From Glutamicibacter sp. JC586 (lineage in GTDB: Bacteria; Actinomycetota; Actinomycetes; Actinomycetales; Micrococcaceae): a stretch of 64,000 nt of DNA. Location: positions 124,001 to 188,000 of the forward strand of contig NZ_VHIN01000009.1 in the NCBI RefSeq assembly GCF_009805585.1, in the 5' to 3' direction. Both the position numbers and the translations under genes were made by a program. Shown here piece after piece: positions 10,965 to 21,275 of this stretch; position 1 is the first letter of the stretch; each line of letters opens with the position of its first letter. The notes under the pieces are model-generated. The model was given only the letters and a program-made list of their open reading frames with translations. It was not told where the DNA came from and ran no database searches.

Positions 10965-11007
10965 TTGATGTACGACATAATGTATGACGAAAGTAGGACG
11001 ATCAACG

Positions 11008-12510
11008 GTGAGCACTACTGTTCCAGTAACCCAAGAGACCTTCGCCCAGGCCGGCAAAGTTCTGGCTGTACACCTTAGCTACTCATCCCGCGCTGAACAG
11101 CGCGGACGTACCCCAAAATTCCCTAGCTACTTCATGAAGGCATCGAGTTCATTGGCCGTCACCAATGGCACCGTTGAACGCCCCGCCGGCACCGAGCTCC
11201 TTGCCTTCGAAGGTGAAATTGCCTTGATCATCGGCACCACCGCTCGCCGCATCAGCGTTGACGAGGCCTGGGGCTATGTCGGATCGGTGACCGCATCAAA
11301 TGACCTAGGCGTGCACGATATGAAGTACGCAGATAAGGGTTCCAACATCCGTTCCAAGTCCGGCGACGGCTACACTCCTCTAGGCCCTAGCCTGTTGGAC
11401 GCCGCAAGCATTGATCCAGCCAAACTACGAGTGCAGACCTGGGTCAACGGCACCCTCGCGCAGGACGCAACCACCGCAGAATTACTCTTCTCATTCGCCA
11501 CGATCATCGCCGATCTATCTCAGCAAATGACCCTGCAGCCAGGTGACATCATCCTCACCGGTACTCCCGCTGGCTCCACCGTGTTCTTCCCCGGCGACGT
11601 CGTTGAAGTTGAAGTCACCGACCTGATCACCGGCACCTCCACCGGCAAACTAAAAACCACCGCAGTCGAAGGCACCGCCGCCTTCGGATCCTTCGGCAAC
11701 CAGCCCAAGGTCAACGAGAAGGATAAGGAAGACGCCTACGGCGATCGCGCTTCAGCTGGACTTCCTCCGGTAATCACCGGCAAGGACGTACTGACCGACA
11801 AGGTGCGCGAACAACTCGCCTCGGTCGCCACCGCCACCCTATCCGCCACCCTGCGCAAGCGCGGATTAAATAACGTGAACATCGAAGTCCCCGGCGCCAC
11901 CAAGGGAATGCAGCGAGTCATCGGCACCGCCCGCACCTTGCGCTACATCCCCAACCGTGAAGATCTGTTCAAGGCTCACGGAGCTGGCTACAACACCCAG
12001 AAGCAGTCCATCGACTCCCTTGGCAGCGGCGAAATCCTCGTGATGGAAGCCCGTGGAGAAACCGGCTCGGCCACCCTCGGTGACATCTTGGCGCTCCGCT
12101 CCCAGCAGCTAGGTGCAGCCGGCATCATCTCAGATGGTGGCGTCCGTGACCTGGACGCCGTGTCCAACCTGGACATCCCTGTTTTCTACAACGGCGCTCA
12201 CCCGGCAGTGCTTGGACGTAAGCACGTGGCATGGGATAAGGACATCACCGTTGCTTGTGGTGGCGTCTCGGTTCAGCCAGGAGATGTGATCGTTGCCGAC
12301 TCCGATGGCATTGTGGTCATCCCGCCAGCACTGGTTGAAGAAGTTGCCGCCGAGGCAGTAGTTACCGAGTCAAATGACGAATTCATCTTTGCCATGGTCA
12401 AGCGTGGCTACGGCATCGAGGGTCTGTTCCCAATGAACGCTGAATGGAAAGCCAAGTACAACACTTGGAAAGATGCTGGAAGCCCGGAGTTGGATTCATG
12501 GTCACTGTAA
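11008..12510 (+). CDS. Fusion of fumarylacetoacetate-hydrolase domain and RraA-type aldolase domain
   Basis: Probably a bifunctional enzyme of the lower homoprotocatechuate pathway. GTG 11008 is preferred (AGGA nine bases upstream); an ATG at 10984 would add eight residues. Residues ~1-225 form an FAH/HpaG domain with the metal-binding FEGEIALIIG segment and GDIILTGTPAG, expected to isomerise or decarboxylate 5-carboxymethyl-2-hydroxymuconate derivatives. Residues ~265-470 form an RraA/HMG-aldolase domain with the GxLGDI...GAAGIISDGGVRD motif, whose Arg-Asp pair is the active-site and metal site in class II pyruvate aldolases. The second domain could replace HpaI in the final cleavage to pyruvate and succinic semialdehyde. 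It is first in the operon and shares 13 bases with the GntR gene. Confidence 0.8.
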   Translation: MSTTVPVTQETFAQAGKVLAVHLSYSSRAEQRGRTPKFPSYFMKASSSLAVTNGTVERPAGTELLAFEGEIALIIGTTARRISVDEAWGYVGSVTASNDLGVHDMKYADKGSNIRSKSGDGYTPLGPSLLDAASIDPAKLRVQTWVNGTLAQDATTAELLFSFATIIADLSQQMTLQPGDIILTGTPAGSTVFFPGDVVEVEVTDLITGTSTGKLKTTAVEGTAAFGSFGNQPKVNEKDKEDAYGDRASAGLPPVITGKDVLTDKVREQLASVATATLSATLRKRGLNNVNIEVPGATKGMQRVIGTARTLRYIPNREDLFKAHGAGYNTQKQSIDSLGSGEILVMEARGETGSATLGDILALRSQQLGAAGIISDGGVRDLDAVSNLDIPVFYNGAHPAVLGRKHVAWDKDITVACGGVSVQPGDVIVADSDGIVVIPPALVEEVAAEAVVTESNDEFIFAMVKRGYGIEGLFPMNAEWKAKYNTWKDAGSPELDSWSL

Positions 12511-13169
12511 TGAGCGCTTCAAAGTCTGAGGTCGCCTATCAACTGGTCTCAGAACGCATCAACACTGGCGCTTACTCCCCCGGATATCGTCTGGTGCTCG
12601 GCACCATTGCCGAAGAACTGGGCTGTTCGGTAGTGCCGGTGCGTGAAGCAATCCGCCGGCTGGAAGCCGAAGGTCTTGTTCACTTCACCCGCAATGTTGG
12701 GGCTACCGTAGCCCAAGTGGATTCCACCCTGTATCTGCACACCATGCAGACGCTGATGATCATTGAGCCAGCTGCCACCGCTTTAGCAGCGCACGCCATG
12801 GACGCCGCATGGTTGTCCAAAGCGCGAGCGTTGAACGAAAAAATGCGTCAGTGCTTGGAAGATTTTGACCCGGTGGCCTTCACCAGAATGAATACCGAAT
12901 TCCATCAGTTGCTTTACGGACAATGTCCCAACCCGCACATTTTAGACCTAGTGCAACGCGGATGGCGCCGGCTGGCAGCAATGCGGGCCAGCAGTTTCAC
13001 CCACATCCCGTATCGTGCCCGCGAATCGGTCAAGGAACATGACGGGTTGCTGGATCTAATTGAATCCCATGCCACCCCGGCACAGATTGAAGCGGCCTGT
13101 CGTGAACACCGAGCCCACACCCTCAACAGCTATCTGAAGGCCGCTGGTATGGAACCCAGCGTCATCTAA
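12498..13169 (+). CDS. GntR-family regulator (FCD type) of the homoprotocatechuate operon
   Basis: 224 residues. ATG 12498 has GGAG eight bases upstream and overlaps the preceding gene by 13 bases; ATG 12510 is the alternative. Residues ~10-75 are a winged helix with the conserved VPVREAIRRLEAEGLV. The C-terminal all-helical FCD domain (about 85-215) retains the metal-ligand pattern, with Asp/His in the TEFHQLLYG region and later HDGLLD and REHRAH histidines, and probably senses a pathway intermediate. Being inside the operon with a typical GntR palindrome at the operon promoter, it is most likely an autoregulated local repressor. Confidence 0.85.
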   Translation: MVTVMSASKSEVAYQLVSERINTGAYSPGYRLVLGTIAEELGCSVVPVREAIRRLEAEGLVHFTRNVGATVAQVDSTLYLHTMQTLMIIEPAATALAAHAMDAAWLSKARALNEKMRQCLEDFDPVAFTRMNTEFHQLLYGQCPNPHILDLVQRGWRRLAAMRASSFTHIPYRARESVKEHDGLLDLIESHATPAQIEAACREHRAHTLNSYLKAAGMEPSVI

Positions 13170-13236
13170 GACAGAAAATTCTTCCCTCCCCACGGCAACG
13201 ATGCCGGAACCACCACCAAAAACGAAAGAAATTCTC

Positions 13237-14730
13237 ATGAGCGAGCACTTCGTACCAGAAAACCTTCCAACCCATCTGCAGCACTACATCGACGGAACCT
13301 TTGTTGATTCCATTTCTTCAGCAACTTTTGACGTTCAAGAACCGGTAACTAACCAGAATTACGCCACCGCCGCCTCGGCCCAGCCAGAGGATGTTGATCT
13401 GGCGGTCGCCGCAGCTAACAAGGCGTTCAAAGAAGGTCCTTGGTCCAAGATGCTGCCACGTGAGCGTTCGCGTGTATTGCACAAGATCGCTGACATCGTT
13501 GAATCTCGTGATGACGAGCTGGCCCTGCTTGAGTCCTACGACTCGGGTCTGCCAATCACCCAGGCTAAGGGTCAGGCACGTCGAGCAGCCGAGAACTTCC
13601 GTTTCTTTGCAGACCTCATTGTCGCTCAGGTAGATAACTCCTTCCGCGTCCCAGGTCGCCAGATGAACTACGTGAACCGCAAACCAATTGGCGTCGCCGC
13701 ATTGATCACCCCATGGAACGTACCGTTCATGCAGGAATCATGGAAGCTGGCTCCGGCCATCGCCACCGGTAACTCCGTGGTTCTCAAGCCTGCCAGCTAC
13801 ACCCCACTTTCGGCAGGACTATGGCCAGCAATCTTCAAAGAAGCTGGCCTTCCAGAAGGCGTCTTCAACCTGATTTTCGGCTCCGGTTCAGTTGCCGGCG
13901 ACTACCTGGTCAAGCACCCTGATGTGCCACTGGTGTCCTTCACCGGCGACTCGTCCACCGGCGCCACCATCTCCACTGCAGCAGCCCCATTCTTCAAGGG
14001 CCTGTCCTTGGAACTGGGCGGAAAGTCTCCTGCCGTAGTCTTCGCCGATGCTGATCTAGAAGCCGCCCTGGACGCCACCGTCTTTGGTGTCTTCTCACTG
14101 AACGGTGAGCGTTGCACCGCTGGTTCCCGCGTGCTCGTACAGCGCGATATCTATGATGACTTCGTAGCCAAGTTTGCAGAACGCGCGAAGAACATCCGGG
14201 TGGGACTGCCAAGCGATCCAAAGACTGAAGTCGGCTCGCTGGTTCACCCGAAGCACTTCGAAAAGGTGATGAGCTATATCGAAATCGGCAAGGGTGAGGG
14301 CCGGTTGCTGGCAGGTGGCGGACGCGCTGAAGGCTTCGAAGAGGGCAACTACGTTGCACCGACAGTCTTCGCGGATGTAGCACCGGATGCGCAAATCTTC
14401 CAGGACGAAATCTTTGGTCCAGTTGTGGCTATCACCCCGTTTGATACCGACGAGGAAGCACTGGAATTGGCCAACAACACCAAGTATGGTCTGGCTGCCT
14501 ACGTATGGACCTCCAATCTGAAGCGTGCACATAACTTTGCCCACCAGATTGACTCCGGCATGGTTTGGCTGAACTCGAACAATGTCCGTGATTTGCGCAC
14601 GCCATTCGGTGGCGTGAAGGCTTCGGGTCTAGGCCGCGAAGGTGGTTACCGTTCGGTGGACTTCTACACCACCCAGCAGTCCATCCAGATCACACTCAAC
14701 GAAGCACACTCCCCTAAGTTCGGCGTTTAG
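13237..14730 (+). CDS. hpaE: 5-carboxymethyl-2-hydroxymuconate semialdehyde dehydrogenase (aldehyde dehydrogenase family)
   Basis: NAD-dependent aldehyde dehydrogenase oxidising the ring-cleavage product of homoprotocatechuate. ATG 13237 matches the usual N-terminus; an upstream ATG at 13201 adds twelve unlikely residues. The 497-residue chain has the full family signature: ITPWNVPF, FTGDSSTG (NAD-binding turn), LELGGKSP (general base Glu), and NGERCTAGSR (catalytic Cys). Substrate is inferred from the downstream dioxygenase and upstream FAH gene; sequence alone would also allow other semialdehydes. It lies 67 bases after the regulator gene and 32 bases before hpaD. Confidence 0.85.
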   Translation: MSEHFVPENLPTHLQHYIDGTFVDSISSATFDVQEPVTNQNYATAASAQPEDVDLAVAAANKAFKEGPWSKMLPRERSRVLHKIADIVESRDDELALLESYDSGLPITQAKGQARRAAENFRFFADLIVAQVDNSFRVPGRQMNYVNRKPIGVAALITPWNVPFMQESWKLAPAIATGNSVVLKPASYTPLSAGLWPAIFKEAGLPEGVFNLIFGSGSVAGDYLVKHPDVPLVSFTGDSSTGATISTAAAPFFKGLSLELGGKSPAVVFADADLEAALDATVFGVFSLNGERCTAGSRVLVQRDIYDDFVAKFAERAKNIRVGLPSDPKTEVGSLVHPKHFEKVMSYIEIGKGEGRLLAGGGRAEGFEEGNYVAPTVFADVAPDAQIFQDEIFGPVVAITPFDTDEEALELANNTKYGLAAYVWTSNLKRAHNFAHQIDSGMVWLNSNNVRDLRTPFGGVKASGLGREGGYRSVDFYTTQQSIQITLNEAHSPKFGV

Positions 14731-14762
14731 CCACCATTAGCTTGATTGCAAAGGAGCACATC

Positions 14763-15872
14763 ATGAGCAAAGAAATTTCAAACCCAATTCCCACCCCATC
14801 GGTTCCAGCGCCAGATATCCTGCGTTGCGCCTACGCAGAATTGGTCGTTACCGATCTTGAGCGTTCCCGTAATTTCTACGTGGACGTGCTGGGCCTGCAT
14901 GTTTCATACGAAGATAAAAACCAGATCTTCCTGCGTTCCTTCGAAGAATTCATCCACCACAACCTGGTACTGACTAAGGGTCCAGTAGCAGCACTGAAAG
15001 CCATGGCATTCCGCGTTCGATCCACCGAAGAAGTAGATAAGGCCGAGGCCTACTACAAGGAGTTGGGCTGCCGCACCGAGCGCCGCAAGGAAGGCTTCGT
15101 TCGAGGCATTGGCGACGCTGTTCGTGTTGAGGATCCGCTGGGCTTCCCTTATGAGTTCTTCTTCGAGACCACCCATGTTGAGCGCCTGCACATGCGTTAT
15201 GACCTGTACTCGGCCGGCGAATTGGTGCGCTTGGACCACTTCAATCAGGTCACCCCGGATGTACCGCGTGGACGCAAGTACCTCGAAGATTTGGGCTTCA
15301 CAGTTACCGAGGATATTCAGGACGATGAAGGCACTACCTACGCTGCTTGGATGCAGCGCAAGGGTACCGTTCATGACACCGCGCTGACCGGTGGCAACGG
15401 ACCACGCCTGCACCACGTTGCCTTCTCCACCCACGAGAAGCACAACATCATCCAGATCTGCGACAAGATGGGTGCGCTGCGTATCTCCGATCGCATCGAA
15501 CGCGGCCCGGGCCGTCACGGTGTGTCCAACGCGTTCTACCTGTACATCTTGGATCCAGATGATCACCGCATCGAGATCTACACCCAGGATTACTACACCG
15601 GCGATCCAGATAATCCGACCATCACCTGGAACGTGCACGATAACCAGCGCCGCGACTGGTGGGGCAACCCAGTAGTCCCATCCTGGTACACCGAGGCTTC
15701 CAAGGTCCTAGACCTTGATGGCAACGTGAAGGAAATCGTCGAGCGTACCGATGATTCCGAACTTGAGGTCACCATCGGTGCCGACGGTTTCTCCTTCACC
15801 CGCGATGGTGATGACACCGGTTCGTACCATGGTCAGGCTTCCAAGGGCTTCAAGCTGGGTAACCAGGTCTAA
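14763..15872 (+). CDS. hpaD: 3,4-dihydroxyphenylacetate (homoprotocatechuate) 2,3-dioxygenase
   Basis: Extradiol dioxygenase that cleaves homoprotocatechuate to 5-carboxymethyl-2-hydroxymuconate semialdehyde. ATG 14763 has AAAGGAG seven bases upstream. The 369-residue protein is a two-module vicinal-oxygen-chelate enzyme; His159 (VRLDHFNQ), the second His in RLHHVAF, and the Glu in HRIEIYTQDYYT are the metal triad. The sequence closely resembles the Fe enzyme of Brevibacterium fuscum and the Mn enzyme MndD of Arthrobacter globiformis, so the metal cannot be told from sequence. Last gene of the operon; a strong terminator follows. The hydroxylase that would make the substrate is not in this window. 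Confidence 0.95.
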   Translation: MSKEISNPIPTPSVPAPDILRCAYAELVVTDLERSRNFYVDVLGLHVSYEDKNQIFLRSFEEFIHHNLVLTKGPVAALKAMAFRVRSTEEVDKAEAYYKELGCRTERRKEGFVRGIGDAVRVEDPLGFPYEFFFETTHVERLHMRYDLYSAGELVRLDHFNQVTPDVPRGRKYLEDLGFTVTEDIQDDEGTTYAAWMQRKGTVHDTALTGGNGPRLHHVAFSTHEKHNIIQICDKMGALRISDRIERGPGRHGVSNAFYLYILDPDDHRIEIYTQDYYTGDPDNPTITWNVHDNQRRDWWGNPVVPSWYTEASKVLDLDGNVKEIVERTDDSELEVTIGADGFSFTRDGDDTGSYHGQASKGFKLGNQV

Positions 15873-16154: not shown

Positions 16155-16865
16155 CTACTGGCTGTCCTTAAGCAATGCCACGTCGGAAACCAGTTCAATA
16201 TGCTCCTGCATTGCAACTGCAGCCGCCTCACCATCCCCATCACTAATCGCTTCAGCGATCTTGCGGTGAGACTCCAAGGAGCGTTCTGGCCGGCCTGGTT
16301 GCCCCAGGGATTCCAGTCGAGTTTCCAGCACCATTTCAGAAATAAATGTCATCAGTTTCTGCAATACCGAAGACTTGGCGGCACCGGTGATTGCTTCATG
16401 AAAGAGCTCGTCCCCTTTCTCGCCGCGCCCGCCGTTTTTAATCTCTTGAGACATCACAGTCAGTGCCTGATTGATCTTTTTCAGGTCTGCATCGGTGCGC
16501 CGTTGCGCGGCCAACGAAGCAAGTTTTACTTCCAAGGTGCTTCGCGCTTCAACAATTTCTGGGAGCCTATTTTCGTGCTCACGAAGTTCACGCAACACCG
16601 TGGCGACGCTGGGGCGGTAGACCAATACAGCCCCGGTTCCGTGTTTAACATCAATGACACCCAGAACTTCCAAAGCCACTAGTGCCTGAGCCAATGTAGC
16701 TCTCGAAACCCCTAGCTGATCTGCTAATTCGCGCTCTGCAGGCAAGTGATCCCCGGGACCCAATTGCTCCTGTTCCACAAAAGCTAAGATCTGCTGCATG
16801 AGCTGCTCATAGAGCCTTGGGCGTTGCACCTTGGCAAAACCAGCCGGCTTCTTGATTTCAGCCAC
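16155..16865 (-). CDS. GntR-family regulator (FadR/MatR-like), divergent from the matC operon
   Basis: 236 residues. The winged helix at ~15-80 contains HLPAERELADQLGVSRATLAQALVALEVLGVI, the classical FadR/LldR-type GntR motif. The C-terminal FCD domain (about 95-225) keeps the DELFHEAITG and ESHRKIAEAI segments that carry metal ligands and usually sense small carboxylates. It is divergently transcribed from the matC-type transporter operon with a 152-base gap, the usual layout for a local repressor. In Rhizobium the malonate regulator MatR is also GntR-type; equivalence here is inference. Confidence 0.85.
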   Translation of the reverse strand: MAEIKKPAGFAKVQRPRLYEQLMQQILAFVEQEQLGPGDHLPAERELADQLGVSRATLAQALVALEVLGVIDVKHGTGAVLVYRPSVATVLRELREHENRLPEIVEARSTLEVKLASLAAQRRTDADLKKINQALTVMSQEIKNGGRGEKGDELFHEAITGAAKSSVLQKLMTFISEMVLETRLESLGQPGRPERSLESHRKIAEAISDGDGEAAAVAMQEHIELVSDVALLKDSQ

Positions 16866-16913
16866 GTTCCCTCCCTCTGCTGTGTTCTAGGACAAACTTA
16901 CACCGAAATTTAG

Positions 16914-16971
16914 CTTGACAAGACACTCGGAGTCTAGGAGGCTAGGCCAGTGAGCCAGTGACTCCCGTCAC
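16914..16971 (+). promoter_or_regulatory. Candidate promoter/operator region of the matC operon
   Basis: TTGACA at 16915-16920 resembles a -35 box and is embedded in CTTGACAAG (16914-16922), a short inverted repeat with half-sites like those bound by GntR proteins. A second short inverted repeat, GTGAC-N4-GTCAC, lies at 16958-16971. No convincing -10 was identified, so this is a weak call. Confidence 0.3.
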
Positions 16972-17017
16972 ACAAAACAAACTCGCTTTGCGGCCTACTG
17001 CGAAAAGGATCAACCAC

Positions 17018-18379
17018 ATGTCTGTCGCGTTAGTTTCAATCTTGATCTTGGCGGTGATGTTCATCATTGCCACAATTTTCCCCATTAACATGGGTGCCTT
17101 GGCCTTTGTCGGAGCATTCCTGCTGGGCACCGTCTTCCTTGGAATGGACACCAAAGAAATACTCGCCAGTTTCCCCGGCGGCCTGTTCCTCACCCTAGCG
17201 GGCGTCACCTACCTCTTTGCCATTGCCCAAAATAACGGCACCATCGACATACTGGTGGATAAAGCCGTCAAACTGGTGGACAGCCGAATCTCACTGATCC
17301 CCTGGGTCATGTTTGTCATCACCGCGGCCATCACCGCCATTGGTGCCCTCGGCCCAGCAGCGGTAGCGATCATCGCACCGATCGCACTGAACTTCGCGCA
17401 GCGCTACAAGATCAACCCACTAATGATGGGCATGCTCGTGGTTCACGGTGCACAAGCCGGCGGCTTCTCCCCAATCGCGGTCTATGGCGTGATCGTCAAC
17501 GGACTGATCGAAAAGGCTGGTTTCGATTTCAGCTCCACCGCGCTGTTCCTGACCAGCTTCATCTTCAACTTGGTCATTGCCATCGTTCTGTTCATCGTCT
17601 TGGGCGGACGGCAACTCGTCGGCCAGCGCGCCGGTGCTATCGCTGAACATGTTGCCAAAGCTCGCCTGGAAGTTTCCGCCGGCGCCCATGCAGCAGACGT
17701 TGACTTCAAGAGCAGTGGCTCGGGCACCTACGGGCCACGCGATCCAGCCGGCGACGGTGCAGCACCCCATGAACCAGGTCAGCGTTTCGGTCAGGTCATG
17801 ACCATCATTGGTTTGATTGCCTTGGCAGTAGTCGCCCTGGGCTTCAAGGTGGACGTTGGATTTGTCTCCATCACCATCGCGGTGTTCCTTGCCCTGGTAA
17901 ACCCAAAGGCGCAGAAGGGTGCCGTAAACAAGATCAGCTGGGCCACGGTGCTATTGATTTGCGGCATGCTCACCTTTGTTGGCGTGCTCGAAGAAGCTGG
18001 CACCATCGAATACGTTTCCAACAGCGTTGCTGGTCTGGGTGCACCACTACTGGCCGGCCTGTTGATCTGTTACATCGGCGCCGTCGTTTCCGCTTTTGCT
18101 TCCTCCACCGCTATTTTGGCCGCACTGATTCCGCTGGCCATTCCGTTCCTGAATACCGGATCCATCAGCGCTACCGGCCTAATCTGCGCACTGGCCATCG
18201 CCTCGACCGTAGTTGATGTCTCGCCTTTCTCCACCAATGGAGCACTGGTGCTGGCCAATGCCCCCGAAGGTACCGACAAGGACCGCTTCTACAAGCAGGT
18301 CTTGGGCTACGGAGGAATCGTTGTACTGGTTGGTCCGGTGCTGGCCTGGGCACTACTGGTGTTGCCCGGCTGGCTCTAA
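17018..18379 (+). CDS. matC: MatC-type dicarboxylate (malonate) carrier
   Basis: Integral membrane transporter of 453 residues. ATG 17018 has AAAGGA nine bases upstream; an in-frame GTG at 16958 is unlikely. The N-terminal ~150 residues match the MatC_N domain pattern: INMGALAFVGAFLLG, GGLFLTLAGVTYLFAIAQNNGTID, and GALGPAAVAIIAP, which are characteristic of the rhizobial malonate carrier. There are about 11-12 hydrophobic helices and a hydrophilic central loop (residues ~210-255, Gly/His-rich). Gene order with a GntR regulator upstream mimics the mat operon, so malonate or a close analogue is the likely substrate; other C4-dicarboxylates remain possible. Confidence 0.75.
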   Translation: MSVALVSILILAVMFIIATIFPINMGALAFVGAFLLGTVFLGMDTKEILASFPGGLFLTLAGVTYLFAIAQNNGTIDILVDKAVKLVDSRISLIPWVMFVITAAITAIGALGPAAVAIIAPIALNFAQRYKINPLMMGMLVVHGAQAGGFSPIAVYGVIVNGLIEKAGFDFSSTALFLTSFIFNLVIAIVLFIVLGGRQLVGQRAGAIAEHVAKARLEVSAGAHAADVDFKSSGSGTYGPRDPAGDGAAPHEPGQRFGQVMTIIGLIALAVVALGFKVDVGFVSITIAVFLALVNPKAQKGAVNKISWATVLLICGMLTFVGVLEEAGTIEYVSNSVAGLGAPLLAGLLICYIGAVVSAFASSTAILAALIPLAIPFLNTGSISATGLICALAIASTVVDVSPFSTNGALVLANAPEGTDKDRFYKQVLGYGGIVVLVGPVLAWALLVLPGWL

Positions 18380-18422
18380 GCGGCACCCTGAACACCATTC
18401 GAAAAATCTTTAGGAGGCTGAT

Positions 18423-19667
18423 ATGAGTTCAACAAAAGAAAAACACTCGACTGCTACCAACATGGACGGCGCAGGGCCGAGCACGATCGGACCCCTAAGC
18501 GGCTACGTCATCCTTGACCTCACCCGTGCCTTGGCTGGTCCGCACGCCGGAATGATGATGGGTGATCTTGGTGCCAAGGTCATCAAAATTGAAAGCGTTG
18601 ACGTTGGGGATGACACCCGAGGCTGGGGCCCACCCTTCGTGGGCCCTGAAGAGAATCCCCAGGCCACCTACTTCCTGTCCTGCAACCGCAATAAGCTCTC
18701 ACTTTCGCTAAATCTGAAAGATCAAGAGCACAAGGCCAAACTTGTAGAGCTGATCAAGAATAGCGATGTTCTGATGGAAAACTTCCGAGCTGGTGTTTTG
18801 GATCGTCTGGGCTTCAGCGTGCAAGTCCTGCACGAGTTGAACCCGCGCCTGGTAATCATGTCGATCACCGGTTTTGGTCACGACGGTCCAGAAGCCCATC
18901 GCAGCGGCTACGACCAGATCTTGCAGGGCGAAGCCGGCCTGATGTCCATAACTGGGTCGGGTCCCGAGGATCCGCAAAAGGTCGGCGTTCCCATCGCTGA
19001 TCTGCTCTCGGGAATGTACGGCGCCTATGGAGTGCTCGCAGCCTTGTTGGAGCGCGAAAAAACCGGGCTCGGACAGGTGGTGCGCACTTCCCTGCTGGCC
19101 TCCATTATTGGTGTGCATGCCTTCCAAGGAACCCGTGCCACCGTGGCCGGCCAGAACCCGCAAGCCATCGGAAACCACCACCCATCCATCGCACCCTATG
19201 GTTTGTACGCATGCAAGGACTCCAAGATACAGATCAGTATCGGCAGCCAGAAACTGTGGCAGAATTTTGCCACCACCTTCAACCTGCCCGCAGATGATCC
19301 GCGTTTTGTTGATAATCAGTCCCGTGTGGCCAACCGCCCCGCGCTCAACCTACTCATCGAGCAGGGATTCGCACAGTACAACGCTGAAGATCTCTTAAGG
19401 ATCCTCGATGACGCCGGCATCCCTTCGGGCAAGGTGCGCAGCATTGAAGAAGTATATGAATGGGAACAGGTGAAATCTCAAGGACTCATCGTTGAGGTGG
19501 AGCATGAAGTTCTAGGCAAGATCAATTTGCCCGGCCCACCCTTGCGCTTCTTCGATCCGGCCACCAACAAGGAGACCACACGCACCGCGCATGCTGCCCC
19601 GCCGGTATTGAACTCGGACGCAGATGAAATTGAGCAATGGCTGCTCTCACGCAAGGAGGGTAGGTAG
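18423..19667 (+). CDS. Class III (CaiB/BaiF-type) CoA-transferase
   Basis: 414 residues beginning after a strong TAGGAGG ribosome site. The N-terminal signature ILDLTRALAGPHAGMMMGDLGAKVIKIE is diagnostic of family III CoA-transferases, and the catalytic Asp193 lies in GVPIADLLSGMYG (equivalent to Asp169 of formyl-CoA transferase). These cytoplasmic enzymes move CoA between carboxylates. Sitting between a MatC-type carrier and a carboxyltransferase-like protein, it is best placed to convert an imported dicarboxylate such as malonate to its CoA thioester, using acetyl-CoA or succinyl-CoA as donor. The substrate is inference; its stop codon directly abuts the next ATG. Confidence 0.85.
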   Translation: MSSTKEKHSTATNMDGAGPSTIGPLSGYVILDLTRALAGPHAGMMMGDLGAKVIKIESVDVGDDTRGWGPPFVGPEENPQATYFLSCNRNKLSLSLNLKDQEHKAKLVELIKNSDVLMENFRAGVLDRLGFSVQVLHELNPRLVIMSITGFGHDGPEAHRSGYDQILQGEAGLMSITGSGPEDPQKVGVPIADLLSGMYGAYGVLAALLEREKTGLGQVVRTSLLASIIGVHAFQGTRATVAGQNPQAIGNHHPSIAPYGLYACKDSKIQISIGSQKLWQNFATTFNLPADDPRFVDNQSRVANRPALNLLIEQGFAQYNAEDLLRILDDAGIPSGKVRSIEEVYEWEQVKSQGLIVEVEHEVLGKINLPGPPLRFFDPATNKETTRTAHAAPPVLNSDADEIEQWLLSRKEGR

Positions 19668-21176
19668 ATGAACACTTCGACAATGCGTATCGATGCTGCC
19701 ACGCTACTGGATATCGTGTTGGATGCTGGCTCCTTTGAGTCATGGGACCAGACCCCGATCCAACCACCACTAAGCGATGAGTACGCCGCGGACCTGCACG
19801 CAGCGACGGCTAAAAGCGGAACCGACGAGGCGGTTATCACCGGTAAAGGTCGGATCCACGGCCGCGAGGTTGCGGTAATCGTCTCCGAGTTTAGATTTCT
19901 GGCTGGTTCCATCGGTCAGGCAGCAGTGCAGCGCATCGTAGCTGCGATTCAGCGAGCCACCGCGCTCAAGCTTCCGTTGCTGGCAGGTCCCGCCTCGGGT
20001 GGTACGCGCATGCAGGAAGGCACGCTGGCCTTCTTGGGAATGGTGGCCATTACCGATGCGGTCCGCCGCCATAAGGAAGCCGGGCTGCCCTATCTGGTGT
20101 ATCTGCGCCACCCGACCACTGGCGGTGTGATGGCCTCATGGGGTTCGCTCGGGCACATTACCGTGGCCGAGCCCGGTGCACTACTAGGCTTCTTGGGCCC
20201 ACGAGTGTATGAAGCTCTGTATGACCAGAAGTTCCCGGATGGGGTGCAAGTTTCGGAGAATCTGTTCCGTAAGGGACTGATCGATGCGGTGGTCCCAGCC
20301 GATGAGCTCTCGAACTTGGTGAATCGGGCCCTATCAATTCTTCAACCGTCCCCCACCAAAAATAGCTTCCCTGCCCCTATGGGCCAGTCCTATTCACGGG
20401 GTAACAAGGATGTCTGGGATTCGGTTCTTGCTAGCCGTAACCCGCGTCGCCCAGACACGAGAATGTTGTTGGCGACCGCCGACGAAGCGTTGCCACTAAA
20501 CGGTACCGGTCAGGGCGAAAAAGATCCCGGCCTGATACTGGCCTTGGCCCGTTTTGGCGATCAGGCCTGCGTGGTGATTGGGCAACAACGTCCTCGACAC
20601 CCAGAAACTGCCAGCTTGGGTCCAGCCTCATTGCGGGAGGCTCGTCGAGGCATGCAGTTGGCTCAGGAGCTGAAGCTACCGTTGGTGACCATCATCGATA
20701 CCACCGGTGCCGAATTATCCGTGCAGTCAGAAGAAGGTGGGCTAGCCGGAGAAATCGCGCGGTCCCTCAATGAGCTCATCGGTTTGCGAACCGCTTCGGT
20801 GTCGGTGCTTCTGGGGCAGGGAACCGGAGGTGCCGCGCTAGCGTTGCTTCCCGCGGACCGGACGCTGGCTGCGGAAAATTCTTGGTTATCCCCCTTGCCA
20901 CCCGAAGGCGCCAGCGCCATCATTCACCGCAGCACCGATAAAGCTCCCGAGATGGCGCGGCAGCAGAAAATCGGTGTGCCGGCGTTGTGTGAAGCAGGTT
21001 TGGTGGACCACGTGGTGGAAGAACAGGTGGATGCTTCGAAGCAGCCGCGTGAATTCTGTCAACAGCTTGGCTTAGCCATTGCTGCAGAAATTTCCTTGGC
21101 CCGGGCCATCCCGGATGCACACCGTTTGGCCCGCCGACAGCTGAAATTCCAGCGCATCGGCGAAGCTGAAGCCTAG
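19668..21176 (+). CDS. Fused AccD/AccA-like carboxyltransferase (AccD3 type), possible biotin-free malonyl-CoA decarboxylase
   Basis: 502 residues made of two crotonase-fold halves. Residues ~1-230 resemble the AccD (beta) subunit, with SGGTRMQEG (110-118) and PTTGGVMASWGSLGH (149-163), but lack the Cys4 zinc ribbon of true AccD. Residues ~285-490 resemble AccA (alpha), with TIIDTTGAELSVQSEEGG and SPEGASAIIH-like segments. Mycobacterium tuberculosis AccD3 has the same build and no settled role. No biotin carboxylase or biotin-carrier gene is nearby, unlike for a working carboxylase. With matC and the CoA-transferase, the simplest reading is decarboxylation of malonyl-CoA to acetyl-CoA; a housekeeping carboxyltransferase is the alternative. 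Start codon abuts the previous stop. Confidence 0.75.
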   Translation: MNTSTMRIDAATLLDIVLDAGSFESWDQTPIQPPLSDEYAADLHAATAKSGTDEAVITGKGRIHGREVAVIVSEFRFLAGSIGQAAVQRIVAAIQRATALKLPLLAGPASGGTRMQEGTLAFLGMVAITDAVRRHKEAGLPYLVYLRHPTTGGVMASWGSLGHITVAEPGALLGFLGPRVYEALYDQKFPDGVQVSENLFRKGLIDAVVPADELSNLVNRALSILQPSPTKNSFPAPMGQSYSRGNKDVWDSVLASRNPRRPDTRMLLATADEALPLNGTGQGEKDPGLILALARFGDQACVVIGQQRPRHPETASLGPASLREARRGMQLAQELKLPLVTIIDTTGAELSVQSEEGGLAGEIARSLNELIGLRTASVSVLLGQGTGGAALALLPADRTLAAENSWLSPLPPEGASAIIHRSTDKAPEMARQQKIGVPALCEAGLVDHVVEEQVDASKQPREFCQQLGLAIAAEISLARAIPDAHRLARRQLKFQRIGEAEA

Positions 21177-21188
21177 GCCCACGTACAA

Positions 21189-21245
21189 CACAGCGGTTCG
21201 AGCCCTTGACAGTTCTTGTCTTGGGGCTCGAACCGCTGTGCTTTG
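21189..21245 (+). terminator. Intrinsic terminator of the matC operon
   Basis: Perfect 17-base arms (21189-21205 and 21224-21240) with an 18-base loop, followed by CTTTG. It ends only about 30 bases before the ABC-F start codon. Confidence 0.85.
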
Positions 21246-21275
21246 TGCAGCTTTCAGCACACTAAACTTAATTCC

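Follow-up and report, generated by a model that had tools for sequence, protein, structure and literature searches.

A candidate malonate-catabolic operon in Glutamicibacter pairing a class III CoA-transferase with an AccD3-type carboxyltransferase-fold protein

We analyzed a 64,000-nucleotide stretch of the genome of Glutamicibacter sp. JC586 (contig NZ_VHIN01000009.1, positions 124,001 to 188,000; hereafter the window), in which a regulator gene faces an operon encoding a MatC-type carrier, a class III coenzyme A (CoA)-transferase of the CaiB type, and a fusion of AccD-like and AccA-like domains (AccDA). With moderate confidence, we read this as a malonate-catabolic operon, in which malonate would be taken up and converted to malonyl-CoA by CoA transfer, and AccDA would decarboxylate this product in place of a malonyl-CoA decarboxylase of the MCD family, probably without biotin. 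Malonate as the pathway substrate is well supported by genomic context, a role for AccDA as the malonyl-CoA decarboxylase is likely, and its independence of biotin is plausible. The features, in window coordinates, are as follows.

16155..16865, minus strand: GntR-family regulator with an FCD ligand domain (Pfam FCD 6.3e-28, GntR 1.8e-15)
16915..16951, plus strand: leader, with TTGACA at 16915-16920 and an operator-like GGAGGCTAGGCCAGT at 16937-16951
17018..18379, plus strand: MatC-type dicarboxylate carrier, 453 amino acids (PF07158 MatC_N 2.7e-61); start placed by comparison with relatives
18423..19667, plus strand: class III (CaiB/Frc) CoA-transferase (PF02515 CoA_transf_3 1.7e-111), proposed malonate CoA-transferase
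19668..21176, plus strand: AccD-AccA fusion (AccDA) of the AccD3 clade, lacking a zinc ribbon; putative malonyl-CoA decarboxylase
21183..21248, plus strand: strong terminator-like hairpin 3' of AccDA (-48.3 kcal/mol, z -8.5)

An open reading frame check found all four genes to be real, with their coordinates as first noted except for the MatC start. This was revised to the ATG at 17018 because MatC in relatives opens with MSxAxVS, which places the GTG at 16958 too early, within the leader. The CaiB stop abuts the AccDA start (19667/19668), and none of 200 shuffles was as stable as the hairpin that follows, after which a clear T-run is absent. Pfam and NCBIfam matches agree with the earlier note on this DNA, which had described a GntR (FadR/MatR-like) gene facing MatC, CaiB-type, and AccD/AccA genes. 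Two of its further statements also hold. The operon contains neither a biotin carboxylase nor a carrier gene, the biotin carboxylase domain on contig C2 being about 133 kilobases (kb) from AccDA, and AccDA has no zinc ribbon: its first residue aligns with residue 53 of E. coli AccD, and since a stop codon closes the frame upstream, the ribbon is truly absent.

The pairing of CaiB with AccDA is conserved. Some AccDA match was found in 243 of 396 sampled genomes of the phylum, and we compared the neighborhoods of 143 AccDA loci, namely that of the window, 60 from the 396-genome sample, the 80 best named loci, and L226 and L227 (L codes denote loci and G codes sampled genomes). This survey, which the earlier note had suggested, did find the co-occurrence: within four genes of AccDA lay both CaiB and MatC in 35 loci, CaiB without MatC in 29, MatB with MatC in four, MatC alone in one, and a biotin carboxylase in eight. 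With the window excluded, CaiB immediately adjoined AccDA in the same orientation in 61 of 142 loci, lying upstream in 60 of them, with a median gap of 1 bp. The 52 of these 61 that come from the 80 named (closest) loci are not independent, because they are close relatives; the other nine come from the remaining 62 loci, in which CaiB lay within four genes in 11, a biotin carboxylase in eight, and MatB in four (marker labels of L052 and L085 left out). Among 11 sampled genomes of the window's order, its own included, AccDA was among the matches listed in five, and CaiB adjoined it in four of them.

In the mat operon of Rhizobium trifolii, malonate is handled by MatR, MatC, MatB, and MatA, and the malonate link of AccDA goes beyond the name of MatC, since MatC-MatB-AccDA operons exist. 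This gene order occurs in G334, G246, and G128, all of one genus (g9) that we take to be Streptomyces; the ligase of G334 scored 981 bits against the solved malonyl-CoA ligase 3NYQ and above the NF005858 cut-off. MatB was above its cut-off in 36 of the 396 genomes and abutted an AccDA-type gene in at least eight of them (G023, G028, G107, G128, G161, G182, G246, and G334). In L079, which falls within the AccD3 clade, AccDA adjoins a ligase of the MatB family and a fragment of MatC. In G171, also of g9, an MCD gene (PF05292, 2.5e-70) adjoins a ligase of the MatB cluster and so holds the place that AccDA takes in its congeners, which points to an alternative decarboxylase at the same position. 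MatC_N was found at 15 places in 12 of the 396 genomes. The six with the best scores are within 3 kb of an AccDA gene, and none of the remaining nine is near an AccDA match that was listed. The MatC-MatB-AccDA operons, which the earlier note did not take into account, are the strongest support for this reading.

The genes usually used for these steps were not found in the window genome. MCD (PF05292, present in four of the 396 genomes) gave no match there at E<=1e-10, nor did MdcA (PF16957) at E<=0.001. No MatB was found in the operon, in the genome at E<=1e-120, or, at the limit used, in any of the 11 sampled genomes of the order, the window's own counted. The ligase of the window genome nearest to MatB is 35% identical to it, fits a fatty-acid ligase model best, and scored 358 against a malonyl-CoA synthase cut-off of 558. 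The suggestion that CaiB takes the role of MatB and AccDA that of an MCD-type MatA has comparative evidence behind it in the conserved pairing and the alternation with MatB, while its chemistry would follow by inference. A second MatC in the window genome (L220, G000:C20:462000-478000) abuts a PrpF gene and was rejected as a part of the system described here. In L221, L223, and L225, too, MatC adjoins a member of the gene cluster to which this PrpF belongs; MatC_N proteins therefore have another context, and probably another substrate there.

CaiB itself falls in no named substrate group (oxalate, glutarate, mesaconate, or carnitine). All seven of its NCBIfam matches are below cut-off, the best being succinate-glutarate CoA-transferase at 310 bits against 750. 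Asp193, which we take to be the catalytic aspartate of class III CoA-transferases, is at least 97% conserved across 63 linked proteins, that of the window counted in. Malonate itself would be its CoA acceptor. Oxalate was considered as a substrate and judged unlikely, with CaiB under the cut-offs of the oxalate models; we know of no route for oxalyl-CoA in a carboxyltransferase fold.

AccDA has both halves of a carboxyltransferase, one AccD-like (Carboxyl_trans, 2e-52) and the second AccA-like (ACCA, 6e-45), and its nearest named relative is 80% identical (G. nicotianae). An AlphaFold model has a predicted local distance difference test (pLDDT) score of 90.5. Its best matches in the PDB, by sequence and by fold, belong to the biotin-dependent carboxyltransferases, AccD and AccA among them, as would be expected if AccDA were the ordinary carboxyltransferase of an acetyl-CoA carboxylase, making malonyl-CoA beside unrelated neighbors. 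We consider this very improbable given the lost zinc ribbon, the absence of a biotin carboxylase neighbor, the separate clade, the spacing of about one base to the CoA-transferase across families, and two other carboxyltransferases in the window genome; moreover, the available text of one report states that M. smegmatis without AccD3 has normal fatty and mycolic acids (PMC5311964). AccDA is also below the NCBIfam equivalog cut-offs for accD (182 of 317 bits) and accA (120 of 319 bits), as it is for the Mdc models TIGR03133 (45 bits; cut-off 278) and TIGR03134 (26 bits; cut-off 237). No Mdc chain was among the 50 fold matches listed for AccDA (VIA-align), which excludes nothing. In the CaiB-linked group, the AccA motifs A[YF][PC]GxxAEERGQ and SPEGC are altered, with G351 replaced by S or T in 64 of 64 proteins, C415 by A in 64 of 64, and R357 by G in 61 of 64.

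That AccDA acts without biotin is a plausible part of this reading. The zinc ribbon, with its two CxxC motifs, is present in E. coli AccD and in all eight AccDA homologues that adjoin a biotin carboxylase, all of which branch outside the AccD3 clade, and in 0 of 63 CaiB-linked ones. The alternative is a malonate pathway in which AccDA works as a biotin-dependent carboxyltransferase in reverse, passing the carboxyl group of malonyl-CoA to a housekeeping biotin carrier, after which biotin carboxylase would free bicarbonate and perhaps make ATP. We rate this as unlikely, yet the least unlikely of the rivals. The AccA-like half retains a glycine-rich G[EQ]GxGG loop and a PEGA motif, and the window genome has carrier domains and four biotin carboxylase domains, on contigs C19 (two), C20, and C2, the last being the one about 133 kb from AccDA. 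Three of the four are found in other settings: that on C20 adjoins another carboxyltransferase, one sits in a LamB/KipI/KipA-like operon identified by motif reading, and one lies in a 1186-residue frame, the size of a pyruvate carboxylase. A biotin carboxylase is near AccDA in only the eight of 143 loci with zinc-ribbon proteins; the ribbon is lost here, and M. tuberculosis AccD3 did not bind any partner tried with it, according to the available part of a report that raised doubt about its role as a carboxylase subunit (PMC4347857). As an observation apart, a LamB/YcsF-KipI-KipA-like operon at L107:5153-9991 (names by motif reading) has a GntR gene of its own and includes a biotin carboxylase/carrier fusion, beside which no carboxyltransferase gene lies.

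We also compared how many sites invariant in acetyl-CoA carboxylases are kept in the AccA half (biotin side) and in the AccD half (CoA side), against a reference of only the eight biotin-carboxylase-linked proteins and E. coli. Mycobacterial AccD3-type rows kept 37 of 55 sites in the AccD half and 32 of 62 in the AccA half (p = 0.09). The test gives no support and is therefore left out of the case for biotin independence.

Several observations weigh against the malonate operon as we have drawn it. In the site comparison, the AccA half of AccDA was no more eroded than the AccD half (35 of 62 sites kept vs. 36 of 55, p = 0.35), and the biotin carboxylase and carrier domains of the genome could serve AccDA in trans. 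MdcE is far less conserved relative to AccA, as given in the available text of PMC5534430; that MdcE is eroded while the C-terminal half of AccDA is still AccA-like fits a retained biotin site. Marker neighbors are absent from 66 of the 143 loci, among them the mycobacterial AccD3-type genes, which lie beside an EchA6-like gene and away from malonate genes, and from 39 of the 62 loci that are not among the 80 named ones. Finally, the CaiB-AccDA pair is also seen in operons for aromatic degradation (L075 and, on a Rhodococcus plasmid, L235) and, in Brevibacterium, within a stretch that motif reading suggests to be histidine genes; the substrate could therefore be a substituted malonate.

That possibility, in which the substrate of the pair would be not malonate but methylmalonate, hydroxymalonate, or a product of ring cleavage, we hold to be quite improbable. 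Besides the aromatic settings, it draws on the pair's position beside HyuA and HyuB, yet MatB alternates with CaiB and MatC co-occurs with the pair, both being named for malonate. The order amidase-HyuA-HyuB-CaiB-AccDA is found in L037, L039, L040, and L041, with HyuA-HyuB also in L169. One reading of these loci is that they release malonate by a barbiturate-like path, which is suggestive only; a literature search for a barbiturate link turned up only shrimp metabolomics. Other settings include an amino-acid-kinase-family gene adjoining AccDA (L038 and L169), an amidase/M20-hydrolase/AsnC set (L121, L186, and plasmid L233, where the CaiB gene is in the DNA and missing from the gene table), a TctA transporter (L034), and a GntP permease (L073). 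In Brevibacterium (L149-L158 and L160) and Sediminivirga (L161), the pair lies inside a conserved gene stretch, and MatC was not found in these loci; in L149, the stretch reads by motif as histidine biosynthesis, with a hisG-like gene upstream and hisF- and hisI-like genes downstream. These settings would fit CaiB-AccDA as a terminal module that disposes of a small dicarboxylate formed in several pathways, malonate being the simplest choice.

The window AccDA and the mycobacterial AccD3-type proteins share a 61-row clade with a Shimodaira-Hasegawa-like approximate likelihood ratio test (SH-aLRT) value of 100, obtained by a quick method without bootstrap and with M. tuberculosis AccD3 itself left out of the tree. 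We presume the AccD3 name of these rows from homology and the EchA6 neighbor. AccD3-type genes adjoin an EchA6-like enoyl-CoA hydratase in L181, L183, and L197 (named Mycobacterium) and in L082 and L083, whose genomes (G038 and G392) carry MatB elsewhere. The role that had been proposed for the orphan AccD3 family is consistent with this kinship, whereas the mycobacterial genes have no linkage to MatC or CaiB. We therefore offer only tentatively, and as somewhat doubtful, the wider idea that the whole clade, mycobacterial AccD3 included, consists of biotin-independent malonyl-CoA decarboxylases of the carboxyltransferase fold that evolved apart from MCD and Mdc and that, in Micrococcales, were coupled to a novel malonate CoA-transferase of class III, giving ATP-free activation.

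Rhizobium MatA is, we presume, a member of the MCD family (PF05292). A 2019 paper, in its available text, assigns the role of malonyl-CoA decarboxylase to some homologues of carboxyltransferases and terms SACE_3856 an orthologue of MatA from S. coelicolor and Rhizobium (PMC6491548). The S. coelicolor MatA meant there may be the AccDA beside MatB, and is probably a relative of the g9 protein. Taking the Rhizobium enzyme cited in that text as MCD family, the label lends the carboxyltransferase fold no experimental support, and the orthologues, a PF01039 protein and a PF05292 protein, would be unrelated by family. The idea of such a decarboxylase is hence partly known and not wholly new. According to the available text of another report, malonyl-CoA is decarboxylated in vitro by MdcD-MdcE, at a lower rate than by human MCD (PMC5534430). 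AccD3 is described as widespread in mycobacteria and awaiting functional study, with a further homologue in M. smegmatis, in the part available of PMC5311964. In open-licence literature searched at the level of titles and abstract openings, we found, among the papers listed, no report of a class III CoA-transferase with an AccDA-type carboxyltransferase for malonate, nor a link of the CoA-transferase version to AccD3.

The regulator and its putative site offer a weaker, independent hint of a malonate operon. A GntR homologue is divergent from and adjacent to MatC in 30 of 33 named loci with MatC, and the FCD-GntR protein is a probable repressor. An operator-like consensus, ACTGGCTNNGCCAGT (13 bases), was chosen by eye from 35 GntR-MatC intergenic regions and occurs with at most three mismatches in 25 of the same 35; the other 10 have four, no better than shuffles. 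It is exact in L192 (a named Mycobacterium) and in L077, which the tree places with L192. In two MatB-type operons (L071 and L226), it has two mismatches, which 0 of 200 mononucleotide shuffles equaled for either operon, and in the window three, which about 1 in 100 shuffles equaled; because the consensus was picked from the same sequences, these figures are no probabilities. TTGACA lies 5' of the site in 11 of 11 regions checked; in the two MatB-type regions, only TTGAC is present. From this pattern, the GGCTAGGCCAGTGAGCCAGT region is a candidate GntR target. Directly upstream of the operon is an aromatic meta-cleavage-type cluster (10984-15872), which includes a fumarylacetoacetate-hydrolase domain fused to an RraA-like domain (10984-12510), a second FCD-GntR gene, an aldehyde dehydrogenase, and a glyoxalase-fold protein.

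From the malonate reading, we infer the following chemistry, CoA donor, and inducer. Malonate would enter via MatC, and CaiB would transfer CoA to it to give malonyl-CoA, with acetyl-CoA or succinyl-CoA as the probable donor. At the carboxyltransferase-fold site of AccDA, malonyl-CoA would then lose CO2 to yield acetyl-CoA, probably with no biotin partner involved. An acetyl-CoA donor, if used, would be regenerated, so that the net reaction would be malonate to acetate and CO2 with no ATP spent on activation. The FCD-GntR protein would repress the operon and respond to malonate or malonyl-CoA. If this is true, the malonyl-CoA route has had each of its two enzymes replaced by an unrelated protein, and actinobacterial genes named acetyl-CoA carboxylase may catalyze the opposite reaction. 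Placing AccD3 with malonate genes also turns its function into a matter for a direct enzyme test.

Among known systems, the R. trifolii mat operon shares with the window a GntR regulator, MatC, and the order of malonate to malonyl-CoA followed by decarboxylation; it differs in that CaiB replaces the ligase MatB, and a carboxyltransferase-fold protein the MCD-fold MatA. The g9 operons have MatC, a malonyl-CoA-forming enzyme, and an AccD-AccA fusion without a zinc ribbon, but use the ATP-dependent MatB, and their AccDA, about 32-33% identical to that of the window, lies outside the AccD3 clade. Like MdcACDE, the window system would combine CoA-transferase-type exchange with a carboxyltransferase-fold decarboxylase, and a GntR regulator is present in both Mdc operons looked at. 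However, Mdc acts on an acyl carrier protein that bears a special prosthetic group, and the window operon has no MdcC, its genome no MdcA match, and its transferase belongs to another class. Mycobacterial homologues of M. tuberculosis AccD3 beside an EchA6-like gene share the clade of the window protein, without its MatC or CaiB linkage. The formyl-CoA transferase/oxalyl-CoA decarboxylase system (Frc-Oxc) joins a class III CoA-transferase to a decarboxylase that regenerates the CoA donor. The window operon would have the same logic, with the difference that oxalyl-CoA decarboxylase is a thiamine diphosphate enzyme, unlike AccDA with its carboxyltransferase fold.

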